From Tropicibacter oceani (GTDB taxonomy: Bacteria > Pseudomonadota > Alphaproteobacteria > Rhodobacterales > Rhodobacteraceae), in contig NZ_CP124616.1 of assembly GCF_029958925.1 (NCBI RefSeq), forward strand, positions 1,054,001-1,118,000: a stretch of 64,000 nucleotides of DNA, written 5' to 3'. Within the stretch, counting starts at the first letter, position 1. Every line of letters begins with the position of its first letter. Below are positions 41,199-44,185 of this stretch, piece after piece. Below the pieces are notes generated by a model. It saw only the letters and a list, made by a program, of their open reading frames with translations, had not been told where the DNA came from and made no database searches. Position numbers and translations under genes: made by a program.

Positions 41199-41717
41199 AT
41201 GAAACGCCCTATTCTCATCCACCCCGATCCGCGCCTGAAAAAGGTCTGCGCGCCGGTGTCCGACCTGTCGGACGACCTGCGCGTGCTGGCCGAGGACATG
41301 TTGGAAACCATGTATGACGCGCCGGGCATTGGTCTGGCCGCGCCGCAGATCGGTGTGCTGGATCGCCTGATCGTGCTGGATTGCGTCAAGGCCGAGGGCG
41401 AGGCGCCGCGCCCGTTGGTGATGTTCAACCCGCGGATTCTGGCCTCGTCCGACGAAAAGAACGTCTATGAAGAGGGCTGTCTGTCGATCCCGGACCAATA
41501 CGCCGATGTCGAACGCCCCAAGGTGGTGGATGTCGAATGGATCGACCGCGACGGCAACCTGCAGACCGAAACATTCGACGGGCTTTGGGCGACCTGCGTG
41601 CAGCACGAAATCGATCACCTCGATGGCAAGCTGTTCATTGACTATCTCAAGCCGCTCAAGCGTCAGATGATCACGCGCAAGATGCAAAAGCTCAAGCGCG
41701 AGATGGCCCGCGCGTGA
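41199..41717 (+). CDS. def: Peptide deformylase (first of three, canonical)
   Basis: A 172-residue metalloprotease that removes the N-formyl group from nascent proteins. All motifs are intact: GIGLAAPQIGV (motif 1), EEGCLSIP with metal ligand C94 (motif 2) and QHEIDHLDG with H136, E137 and H140 (motif 3). It leads the cluster def-def2-def3-fmt with 4-base overlap to the second copy. This copy is the most likely housekeeping deformylase. Confidence 0.97.
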   Translation: MKRPILIHPDPRLKKVCAPVSDLSDDLRVLAEDMLETMYDAPGIGLAAPQIGVLDRLIVLDCVKAEGEAPRPLVMFNPRILASSDEKNVYEEGCLSIPDQYADVERPKVVDVEWIDRDGNLQTETFDGLWATCVQHEIDHLDGKLFIDYLKPLKRQMITRKMQKLKREMARA

Positions 41718-42208
41718 GCGTGCTGCCGATCCTGACATGGCCCGATCCGCGCCTGTCCCGGGTCTGCGATCCGGTTTCGGATGTGGCCGCAGTTGCGCCG
41801 CTGATCGTGGATATGTTCGAAACCATGTATGCCGCGCCCGGTCGCGGTCTGGCCGCGCCGCAGGTGGGCGTTCTGGCACGGGTTTTCGTCATGGATGCAG
41901 GCTGGAAAAGCGGTGACAAGACCCCGCTGGCCTGCATCAACCCGGCGATTGTCGAGACCTCGGAGGCGCGGGTGAGCGGCGGCGAAGGCTGCCTGTCGAT
42001 GCCGGGGATCGAGGTTCAGGTACCGCGCTTTGCCGAGGTGACACTGGCCTATACCGACCCCGAGGGGCGCGATTGTCGGCGACGATTGACGGGGTTCGAG
42101 GCGATCTGCGCGCAGCACGAGCTGGATCATCTGGATGGCACACTGCATGTCGACCGTCTGGACGCGGATGCACGGGCTTTGGCCCTGTCTGAATACGAGG
42201 CGCTGTGA
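41714..42208 (+). CDS. Peptide deformylase (second paralogue)
   Basis: A 164-residue deformylase starting at GTG 41714 that overlaps the first def stop (GTGA). The catalytic set is complete: GRGLAAPQVGV, EGCLSMPG with C93, and QHELDHLDG with H135, E136 and H139. Compared with the first copy, motif 1 has Arg for Ile and the C-terminus is shorter and acidic rather than Lys-rich. It is probably active, with a different substrate preference or level of expression. Confidence 0.94.
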   Translation: MSVLPILTWPDPRLSRVCDPVSDVAAVAPLIVDMFETMYAAPGRGLAAPQVGVLARVFVMDAGWKSGDKTPLACINPAIVETSEARVSGGEGCLSMPGIEVQVPRFAEVTLAYTDPEGRDCRRRLTGFEAICAQHELDHLDGTLHVDRLDADARALALSEYEAL

Positions 42209-42705
42209 TGGTGGTACGACCCTGCATTCCCTATGGTGACAAGCGCCTGCACCGGGCGGCCGCCCCGGTCGACGGGATCACCGACGAGATCCGCGCCATC
42301 TGGACCGACATGATCGACACGATGGAGGCGATGCCGGGTGTCGGCCTTGGCGCGCCGCAGATCGGGGTGGGGTTGCGTCTGGCGGTGGTCGATGCCTCGG
42401 AAGAGCGGGGCCGCGCGGTGCGGATGGCGAACCCCGAGGTGCTGCACGCCAGCGTGCAGTTGCGCGAACACGAAGAGGCGAGCCCGAACCTGCCCGGTGT
42501 GTCGGCGGTGATCAAACGGCCGCGCGCGGTGACGGTGCGGTTCATGGATGCCAGCGGCGCGGTGGTCGAGCGCGACTTTGTCGGGCTGTGGGCGACCTCG
42601 GTGCAGCATCAGATCGATCATCTGGACGGCAAGCTGTATGTCGATCACCTGAGCAAGATGAAGCGGGACATGCTGGTGAAGAAGTCGCGCAAGTTCGCGC
42701 GGTAA
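42208..42705 (+). CDS. Degenerate peptide deformylase paralogue (probably not a deformylase)
   Basis: A 165-residue deformylase-fold protein whose active site is altered. Motif 1 is GVGLGAPQIGV, motif 2 reads EEASPNLPG so the Cys metal ligand is S92, and motif 3 reads QHQIDHLDG so the catalytic Glu is Q135 while H134 and H138 remain. The rest of the frame is open and well conserved in style, with a normal Lys-rich tail, so it does not look like a decaying pseudogene. It starts at ATG 42208 (or GTG 42205), overlapping the second def stop. It may be a regulatory or binding paralogue. Confidence 0.85.
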   Translation: MVVRPCIPYGDKRLHRAAAPVDGITDEIRAIWTDMIDTMEAMPGVGLGAPQIGVGLRLAVVDASEERGRAVRMANPEVLHASVQLREHEEASPNLPGVSAVIKRPRAVTVRFMDASGAVVERDFVGLWATSVQHQIDHLDGKLYVDHLSKMKRDMLVKKSRKFAR

Positions 42706-42713
42706 CGGATTTG

Positions 42714-42771
42714 GCGAAGGGCGGAGCGGGGGCCAGCCCCCGCACCCCCGGAGTGTATGGACCAAGAAGAA
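42714..42771 (-). repeat. Dispersed intergenic hairpin repeat, copy F
   Basis: On the minus strand this reads CTTCTTCTTGGTCCATACAC then TCCGGGGG and the hairpin GCGGGGGC-TG-GCCCCCGC. It is in the opposite orientation to copies B to E and lies between def3 and fmt, so it is transcribed within the def-fmt operon unless fmt has its own promoter. Confidence 0.7.
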
Positions 42772-42786
42772 GACAGGGGTGGCGCG

Positions 42787-43698
42787 ATGCGTGTGGTCTT
42801 TATGGGAAGTCCCGAGTTTTCGGTTCCGGTGCTCGAAGCGCTGATCGGGGCCGGGCACGACGTGGTCTGCGTCTATTGCCAGCCGCCGCGCCCCGCCGGG
42901 CGTGGCAAGAAGGATCGTCCGACGCCGGTGCAGGCGCGGGCCGAGGCGCTGGGATTGCCGGTGCGCCATCCGGTGTCTTTGAAGGCGGCGGCCGAGCAGG
43001 CGGAATTCGCGGCGCTGGGCGCCGATGTGGCGGTGGTCGTGGCCTATGGGTTGATCCTGCCGCAGGCGGTTCTGGATGCGCCGGCGCAGGGCTGTCTGAA
43101 CATCCACGCCAGCCTGCTGCCGCGCTGGCGCGGGGCGGCGCCGATACACCGGGCGATCATGGCCGGGGACGCGCAGACCGGCGTCTGCATCATGCAGATG
43201 GAGGCCGGGCTGGACACCGGGCCGGTTCTGCTGCGCGAGGCGATCGCGATTGGCGAGGAGGAAACCACCGGCGGTTTGCACGACCGGCTGAGCGCCCTTG
43301 GGGCGGATCTGATCGTGCGGGCGCTGGCGCAACTGGATGGGTTGGAACCGCAGGCGCAACCCGCAGAGGGCGTGACCTATGCCGCCAAGATCGACAAGGC
43401 CGAGGCGGCCATCGACTGGACGCGTCCGGCAGAGGAGGTCAGCCGCCAGATCCGCGGGCTGTCGCCCTTTCCCGGGGCCTGGACGCTGCATGGGGATGAA
43501 CGGGTCAAGCTGCTGGGCGCGCGGGTCGTCGCGTCCGAGGGCAAGGCCGGCGAGGCGCTGGATGATGCATTCACCATTGCCTGCGGCGCGGGTGCGGTGC
43601 AGGTTACGCGGGCGCAACGTGCCGGGAAGGGTGTGCAGGACGCAGAGGTTTTCCTGCGCGGCCACCCCATTCCAAAGGGCGCAAGACTGGGAGGTTGA
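42787..43698 (+). CDS. fmt: Methionyl-tRNA formyltransferase
   Basis: A 303-residue enzyme that formylates initiator Met-tRNA using 10-formyl-THF. N-terminus [19 protein letters not shown], formyl-folate site with N105 and H107 in [20 protein letters not shown], and GLDTGPVLL carrying the catalytic Asp are all present; a C-terminal OB-like tRNA-binding domain follows ([20 protein letters not shown]). The start at 42787 was chosen because the upstream ORF extension covers repeat F. It is clustered with deformylases, which reverse the modification after translation. Confidence 0.97.
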
Positions 43699-43701
43699 GC
43701 C

Positions 43702-43938
43702 ATGTTTCCGACCCTGATCGGTACGGTCGTGATTGCCGGGATCGTGGGCTATGCCTCGGAGCGGTCCGGGTTTACCCACAACGGCATTTTGCAAAGCATC
43801 ATCATCTGCATTGGCGGGGCCTTCCTGGCCTATTTCGTTCGGCTCATGTTCGGGATCGGGTTCGGATCACCGGGGTTGAATGCGATTGCGTCCTCGGTCG
43901 GGGCGTTGATCATCGTGCCGACGCATTGGCGCAAGTGA
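43702..43938 (+). CDS. Small membrane protein, three helices (GlsB/YeaQ-like)
   Basis: A 78-residue hydrophobic protein with helices at about 4-18, 28-46 and 56-72 and Gly-rich packing (IICIGGAFLAYFVRLMFGIG). The size and Gly pattern suggest the transglycosylase-associated GlsB/YeaQ/YmgE group, but the match is by pattern only. It starts 3 bases after the fmt stop and may be in the same unit. Function unknown. Confidence 0.7.
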   Translation: MFPTLIGTVVIAGIVGYASERSGFTHNGILQSIIICIGGAFLAYFVRLMFGIGFGSPGLNAIASSVGALIIVPTHWRK

Positions 43939-43948
43939 GGAAACGGAA

Positions 43949-44185
43949 ATGGGTATTGTCTGGTTGATCATCGTGGGGGCGGCTGCCGGGTTTCTGGCGA
44001 CACGCTTCATGAACCTGCGGCTTGGCACGCTGCAGACGATCGGGGTCGGGATCGGGGGTGCGCTGATCGGCGCGCTGGTCCTGCGGTTCCTGCTGGCGCT
44101 GACTGGCATGTTGGCCGGTCTTGTGGGCGCGGTTCTGGGCGCCATGCTGTTGCTGTGGATCATCAAGGCGGTGATGGACCGCTGA
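43949..44185 (+). CDS. Small membrane protein, GlsB/YeaQ/YmgE-like
   Basis: A 78-residue hydrophobic protein beginning MGIVWLIIVGAAAGFLATRF, close in style to the GlsB/YeaQ/YmgE family (IGAILGFIAGWLAG pattern), with GVGIGGALIGALVLRFLL in the middle and a third helix at the end. It follows the previous 78-residue gene by 10 bases, and both have the same length and topology, so they may be distant duplicates. Function unknown; stress-related envelope roles are suspected for the family. Confidence 0.75.
   Translation: MGIVWLIIVGAAAGFLATRFMNLRLGTLQTIGVGIGGALIGALVLRFLLALTGMLAGLVGAVLGAMLLLWIIKAVMDR

Follow-up and report, generated by a model that had tools for sequence, protein, structure and literature searches.

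The window analysed here, a 64,000-nucleotide stretch of the Tropicibacter oceani genome (contig NZ_CP124616.1), contains three peptide deformylase genes in tandem, def1, def2 and def3, followed by fmt. The features of the locus are as follows.

41199..41717, + strand: def1, canonical peptide deformylase with EGCLS and QHEIDH motifs and a basic C-terminal helix; family score above the cut-off
41714..42208, + strand: def2, with a GTG start; motifs II and III intact (EGCLS, QHELDH), basic C-terminal ribosome helix lost
42208..42705, + strand: def3, putative pseudo-deformylase of 165 aa, whose ATG has one base in common with the def2 stop (TGATG)
42475..42489, + strand: rewritten motif II of def3 as placed by alignment, EASPN (E90 A91 S92 P93 N94) replacing EGCLS
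42604..42621, + strand: rewritten motif III of def3, QHQIDH (Q133 to H138), with Gln135 replacing the catalytic Glu
42655..42702, + strand: basic C-terminal helix of def3, residues 150-165, at positions matching the E. coli ribosome contacts K150, K157 and K160
42787..43698, + strand: fmt, methionyl-tRNA formyltransferase, with an alternative ATG at 42757

The end of def1 and the start of def2 share 4 nt (GTGA), the end of def2 and the start of def3 share 1 nt, and the gap between def3 and fmt measures 81 nt, or 51 nt if the ATG at 42757 is the fmt start. The preliminary description of this DNA had proposed three translationally coupled deformylase genes ahead of fmt; the overlaps bear this out for the three def genes, whereas fmt is adjacent without overlapping. 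The inferred def3 start also overlaps the stop of the upstream deformylase in 97 of the 147 loci scored for this feature. These three genes are the only PF01327 matches of the T. oceani genome, all above the Pfam cut-off and free of internal stops. Scans for promoters and terminators, and for tandem repeats, returned nothing useful. By eye, the gap between def3 and fmt contains a perfect GC-rich inverted repeat with a 7-bp stem, a 4-nt loop and no T run (42727-42744). Two neighbouring hydrophobic ORFs of 78 aa each (43702-43938 and 43949-44185), likely encoding small membrane proteins, lie directly 3' of fmt.

Alignment of def3 with def1 (44% identity), def2 (33% identity) and E. coli Def (MG1655 reference sequence, residue numbering verified) placed Ser92 (codon AGC, 42481-42483) at the position of the metal-ligand Cys and Gln135 (codon CAG, 42610-42612) at that of the catalytic Glu, as had been described. 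Relative to E. coli Def, the changes are Cys90 to Ser92, Leu91 to Pro93, Gly89 to Ala91 and Glu133 to Gln135; His132, His136, Gln50, Glu88 and Arg97 are all retained, and the two motif III histidines reported earlier are present as His134 and His138. The 165-aa frame is open from end to end, in agreement with the intact frame and normal length first noted. The rewrite of motif II proved larger than the single Ser92 exchange initially recognized, since EGCLS has become EASPN and the replacement of Leu by Pro93 had been missed. Motif I, which was said to be kept, is nearly intact (GVGLGAPQ), but the window copy has Gly48 where 132 of the 152 def3 genes examined below have Ala. Similarly, def1 and def2 had been credited with all motifs; both possess EGCLS and QHE[IL]DH, but motif I of def2 reads GRGLAAPQ, and this Arg at the first hydrophobic position is found in 74 of 75 def2 genes. 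Compared with the motifs of active deformylases, def3 has motif I with the catalytic Gln (Gln51 in 152/152) and departs from motif II (EASPN; Cys in 0/152) and motif III (HQIDH). The replaced catalytic residues suggest that def3 has lost deformylase activity. Recurrence of the same residues in other genera ruled out an artefact of sequencing or assembly in the window copy.

Profile searches placed def3 within the deformylase family, with a PF01327 score of 133.8 bits against a curated cut-off of 22.8. Its scores for TIGR00079 (117.7, cut-off 103.95) and NF001159 (134.4, cut-off 125) also exceeded the thresholds, while the top-scoring model, NF009484 (141.2), remained below its cut-off of 190. 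The window copy exceeds NCBI's curated thresholds for two models named 'peptide deformylase' (NF001159 and TIGR00079), and automated pipelines may therefore label this apparently inactive protein as active, a misannotation risk. The other 29 sequences of the def3 profile alignment match both models too, cut-offs aside.

Structure prediction (pLDDT 95.7, pTM 0.90) gave def3 a full deformylase fold. The first-ranked structural match of the model was 1icj, which we take to be the same protein as 2w3t, E. coli Def; the latter ranked second, with a TM-score of 0.94 and an rmsd of 1.2 Å over 162 alignment columns. Since this alignment spans nearly the whole chain, the C-terminal helix is presumably placed as in E. 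coli. The best solved match by sequence was 5j46, a deformylase chain from Burkholderia multivorans. The C-terminal tail of the model forms an alpha-helix at residues 150-164, and an alpha-helical C-terminal tail is the feature by which the type 1B class is described (PMC12690207).

We inspected 160 loci (L004-L163) fetched by similarity to def3, which yielded 386 deformylase frames (159 def1, 75 def2 and 152 def3) after three fragments were dropped. Most loci contained def1 and def3 (79) or all three genes (72); the others had def1 only (5), def1 and def2 (3, one of which, L109, is cut by a contig end) or def3 only (1). Among these loci, def3 was retained more often than def2, the second intact copy. 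Residue-by-residue scoring of the 152 def3 genes, a set to be read against about 249 def3-positive genomes, revealed Ser92 in 151/152 (the exception being Pro in L088), Pro93 in 152/152 and Gln135 in 151/151; because def3 was assigned by residues 92 and 135, these frequencies are circular on their own, and a tree with masked columns (below) carries the claim. His134 and His138 were present in 151/151, and Gln51, Glu90 and Arg104 in 152/152. In the same loci, def1 had Cys and Leu in 159/159 and Glu in 158/159, with the only non-Glu copy (L095) lying in an apparently broken frame, and def2 had Cys in 74/75 and Glu in 73/75. The mean pairwise identity across the 72 three-copy loci (2556 pairs) was 72% for def1, 68% for def3 and 52% for def2. 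Outside the motifs, Trp32, Met42 and Ala74 are def3-specific and conserved, each in 150/152.

Judging from these alignments, def2 loses catalytic residues sporadically and independently, whereas def3 is uniform. One such def2, with EENALS and QQVMDH, lies at L013 970-1498 (+) and recurs at L237 1973-2501 (+), which by its length is the same contig, and another, with QHKLDH, at L081 1500-2034 (reverse-strand coordinates). A further deformylase fragment was seen in genome G222 at the border of the retrieved sequence, more than 1 kb upstream of def1 (L115 1-268, reverse-strand coordinates).

The invariance of both His ligands and of Gln51, Glu90 and Arg104 indicates that the old metal site of def3 is still constrained, and would fit an enzyme with altered chemistry, for instance a Cys-free deformylase adapted to oxidative stress or to a different metal, or a hydrolase acting on some other N-terminal group. 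Roles of this sort have been put forward for the type 3 class, in a paper that also cites active enzymes of this type from T. brucei (PMC12690207). Nevertheless, the general base, the metal-ligand thiol and the residue supplying the Leu91 NH have all been replaced together and nearly invariantly, and resistance to oxidation would need the Cys change alone. We consider this explanation rather unlikely, and favour a maintained copy that no longer catalyses deformylation.

Phylogenetic analysis argued for a single origin of that copy. In a 412-leaf tree, all 152 def3 sequences formed one clade without other members (support 1.0), and the clade retained a support of 0.998 after six active-site columns (91-94, 131 and 135) were masked. 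Because masking left the clade whole, the rewrite most likely arose in a single event and has been maintained since. The sister paralogue of this clade was poorly supported, with parent supports of 0.77 and 0.81. The conservation of the S92/Q135 changes in orthologues, which the preliminary description had proposed as a check, was thus found in 151/152 and 151/151 genes of one clade, and orthologues retaining Cys and Glu, which would have spoken against it, numbered none among the 152.

Selection was estimated from 33 within-genus pairs, from which comparisons with non-finite dS, dS of 0.1 or less, or a gene missing in one partner were dropped. The median dN/dS was 0.13 for def3 (29 pairs), 0.12 for def1 (32), 0.14 for fmt (33) and 0.21 for def2 (9); the largest def1 value, 0.59, came from L234, whose def1 lies in two separate frames. 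With loci paired irrespective of genus, the values were higher (def3 0.31, def1 0.21, def2 0.39), probably owing to synonymous saturation, and the within-genus pairs were used for this reason. The apparently dead def3 is held almost as tightly as def1 and more tightly than def2, and the expectation of a dN/dS well below 1 was borne out, with a def3 median close to those of def1 and fmt.

These values bear on the possibility that def3 is an eroding duplicate. One locus of the family, L111 (genome G157, contig 67), has an intact def1 followed by def2 and def3 frames with shifts and stops, reflecting either real decay or poor assembly of a genome that is 80% complete, and loci without def3 are scattered over 23 groups of a rough tree. 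Against this, the within-genus dN/dS equals that of def1 and fmt, identical substitutions recur across genera, and no internal stops occur among the def3 matches listed. Erosion, for which frame decay in close relatives had been named as the telling sign, was ruled out by the low within-genus dN/dS and the residue fixation, and we give it almost no credence. The nearly invariant Ser, Pro and Gln, the low dN/dS and the intact frame together lend good support to the earlier suggestion of a maintained, putatively non-catalytic protein.

To determine the spread of def3, we searched the def3 protein of the window against 295 family genomes, each from a different genus, of which 287 matched. The enzyme is essential, so the eight genomes without any deformylase suggest missing sequence and are uninformative. 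A def3 profile was applied first to 80 of the 287 matching genomes, then to 38 more and one further genome; it separated def3 (E of 7e-57 or better) from other deformylases (9e-52 or worse), with a value of 4e-54 for the def3 of G147, which is cut by a contig end. In total, def3 was present in 249/287 genomes, 72 by profile and 177 on the single-sequence E-value alone (about 3e-67 or better), and an overlapping draw of 149 genomes of the family contained it in 146. The other 38 genomes possess a deformylase without an intact def3, so def3 seems dispensable in places; they include G098, whose contig ends right where def3 would be (L109), and G157, which has the degraded copy at L111. The 23 groups of loci without def3 come from a single-locus def1+fmt tree whose supports were not checked, and which is too weak to tell whether basal lineages never had def3 or lost it later. 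In 285 genomes from other alphaproteobacterial families (four further genomes of the draw belonged to Rhodobacteraceae itself), with up to 12 candidates scored per genome, the profile found no match in the def3 range. Because the best E listed there was weaker (5.6e-50 vs 7e-57 or better for full-length def3) and all 26 of these matches that were inspected had Cys and Glu, def3 looks specific to the family.

We then compared the C-terminal tails with the ribosome contacts of E. coli PDF, which are listed as L149, K150, R153 and K157 with uL22 and K160 and R163 with 23S rRNA (PMC12690207). At the positions of K150, K157 and K160, Lys or Arg was found in 150/151, 151/151 and 150/151 def3 sequences and in 157, 157 and 158 of 159 def1 sequences, vs 2, 6 and 7 of 75 def2 sequences. 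All 72 three-copy loci had three basic contacts in def1, none or one in def2 and three in def3, and 74 of the 79 two-copy loci had three in each gene. The median net tail charge was +8 for def1, -1 for def2 and +6.5 for def3. In the window def3, Met155 occupies the R153 position, which was basic in 10/151 and Met in 134/151 def3 sequences; in def1 this position was basic in 0/159, with Met in 122 and Leu in 33 of 159. The R163 position, Arg165 in the window def3, was basic in 55/151 def3 vs 157/159 def1 sequences. The remaining tail positions of def3 were less uniformly basic (74%, 78%, 62% and 20%, for example). Ribosome binding, suggested earlier as an example of a non-catalytic role, therefore receives indirect backing from the three conserved basic positions but none from the R153 and R163 positions, which are mostly not basic. 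Arg153 of def3 (E. coli Gln151), which has no listed contact, was 99% basic in both def1 and def3, indicating that basic conservation is not confined to ribosome contacts; the basic tail could instead serve another partner or the fold. The tail conservation suggests that def3 may bind the ribosome; by their residues, def2 resembles a deformylase no longer tied to the ribosome and def3 a ribosome-docking shell without chemistry.

We propose, at about even chances, that def3 is a maintained pseudo-deformylase that docks at the ribosomal exit and tunes access to nascent chains; that it is a maintained non-enzyme at the ribosome, not a decaying duplicate, is probable. A deformylase fold in an ancestor within the family would have lost catalysis once and been kept under strong purifying selection since. 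The Leu-to-Pro change would remove a backbone NH which, at Leu91 of E. coli PDF, presumably helps to hold the reacting formyl group. In molecular docking, one compound forms hydrogen bonds with the backbone of Leu91 and with the side chain of Gln50 (PMC4964514). The basic helix of def3 resembles the E. coli deformylase helix that docks beside uL22 at the tunnel exit. Seated there without cleaving, def3 might tune the access of def1 to new formyl-methionine chains, or alternatively that of methionine aminopeptidase or trigger factor; in its simplest role it would occupy the exit site and so delay or time deformylation, or exclude other factors. Such gatekeeping seems to us a better reading than the binding or trapping of formyl peptides, the other role suggested initially, which is made somewhat less likely by the variability of pocket residue 45 (Tyr in 20/152) and by the backbone NH lost with Pro93. 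More tentatively, with the balance somewhat against it, the three genes may have divided their tasks, with def1 combining catalysis and docking, def2 retaining catalysis only and def3 docking only; bound to the ribosome, def3 would then read or gate nascent formyl-methionine chains.

The main rival to ribosome docking is that def3 acts as a non-catalytic subunit or stabilizer of def1 (or def2), forming a hetero-pair with raised stability or activity and a tail that is merely inherited. Def1 and def3 are tightly coupled and remain together at the 79 loci where def2 is missing, and the conserved Trp32, Met42 and Ala74 could mark a new contact surface; on the other hand, 38 of the 287 genomes with deformylases do without an intact def3, and type 1 deformylases are mostly monomers. 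We regard such a partnership as unlikely, though less so than altered chemistry, and retain docking at the ribosomal exit as the preferred role.

In comparison with known systems, def3 resembles type 1B E. coli Def in its fold, metal histidines, Gln51/Glu90/Arg104, basic alpha-helical C-terminus and place before fmt, but differs by the nearly invariant replacements of Cys90, Leu91 and Glu133 by Ser, Pro and Gln, so that activity would not be expected. As an accessory paralogue beside an active enzyme, it is comparable to the type 3 copies reported as inactive in S. aureus and in S. pneumoniae (PMC12690207) and to the accessory DefA of S. agalactiae, reported as non-functional (PMC5071857). For the type 3 class, motifs I and II are described as altered (PMC12690207), whereas in def3 motif I is nearly intact, motifs II and III are changed and the helix is type 1B-like; unlike the type 3 copies described, it also sits in a def-def-def-fmt operon. 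Vibrio Def2 is likewise an accessory PDF with changed ribosome contacts, including Met at R153 as in most def1 and def3, but V. cholerae Def2 is reported to be active with an altered tail, the reverse of def3, in which the active site is altered and the basic tail mostly conserved (PMC12690207).

B. subtilis DefA is also an accessory deformylase, and its non-deformylase role requires the C-terminal helix: it inhibits the tyrosine kinase PtkA through surface residues and that helix (PMC11194573). By analogy, def3 could be a protein-binding regulator outside translation. However, DefA is a minor deformylase whose helix is shorter than that of the E. coli type and runs along a different axis (PMC11194573); the def3 model, by contrast, aligns with E. 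coli Def over 162 columns, and the operon is translational. This makes a regulator of the DefA kind improbable, below the other maintained roles considered, and a role at the ribosome remains preferred.

The loci described here are of the same kind as the deformylase clusters published for Rhodobacterales, where clustered PDFs occur in 98.1% of reference species and three PDFs in 62.5%, and which account for 104 of the 145 species with clustered PDFs (PMC12690207, 2025). The rationale for these clusters was called elusive, and def3 bears directly on this published question of why Rhodobacterales cluster deformylases. The one main-text passage of that study that names Rhodobacterales refers neither to a fixed inactive copy nor to a split between tail and active site; the available open-access literature yielded no report of a Ser-Pro/Gln def3 copy or of such a split, and the main text of an R. 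sphaeroides essential-gene paper does not use the word deformylase. Within these sources, the clustering is thus known, and the fixed inactive copy and the tail/active-site split are apparently unreported. If the proposal is true, N-terminal formyl processing includes a pseudoenzyme fixed across most of Rhodobacteraceae, and the conservation of a seemingly dead paralogue of an essential enzyme implies an unrecognized step in the handling of formylated chains at the ribosome exit.

Named genera with def3 include Phaeobacter (L276) and Paracoccus (L218), whose possession of the gene would make its role testable. The named loci had Ser and Gln in 80/80, but the search patterns used to find them included SPNLPG, and they were excluded as evidence because of this bias. 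One further named record, titled Nocardioides marinus (L282), carries a def locus of this family; N. marinus is an actinobacterium, and the record is probably mislabelled.
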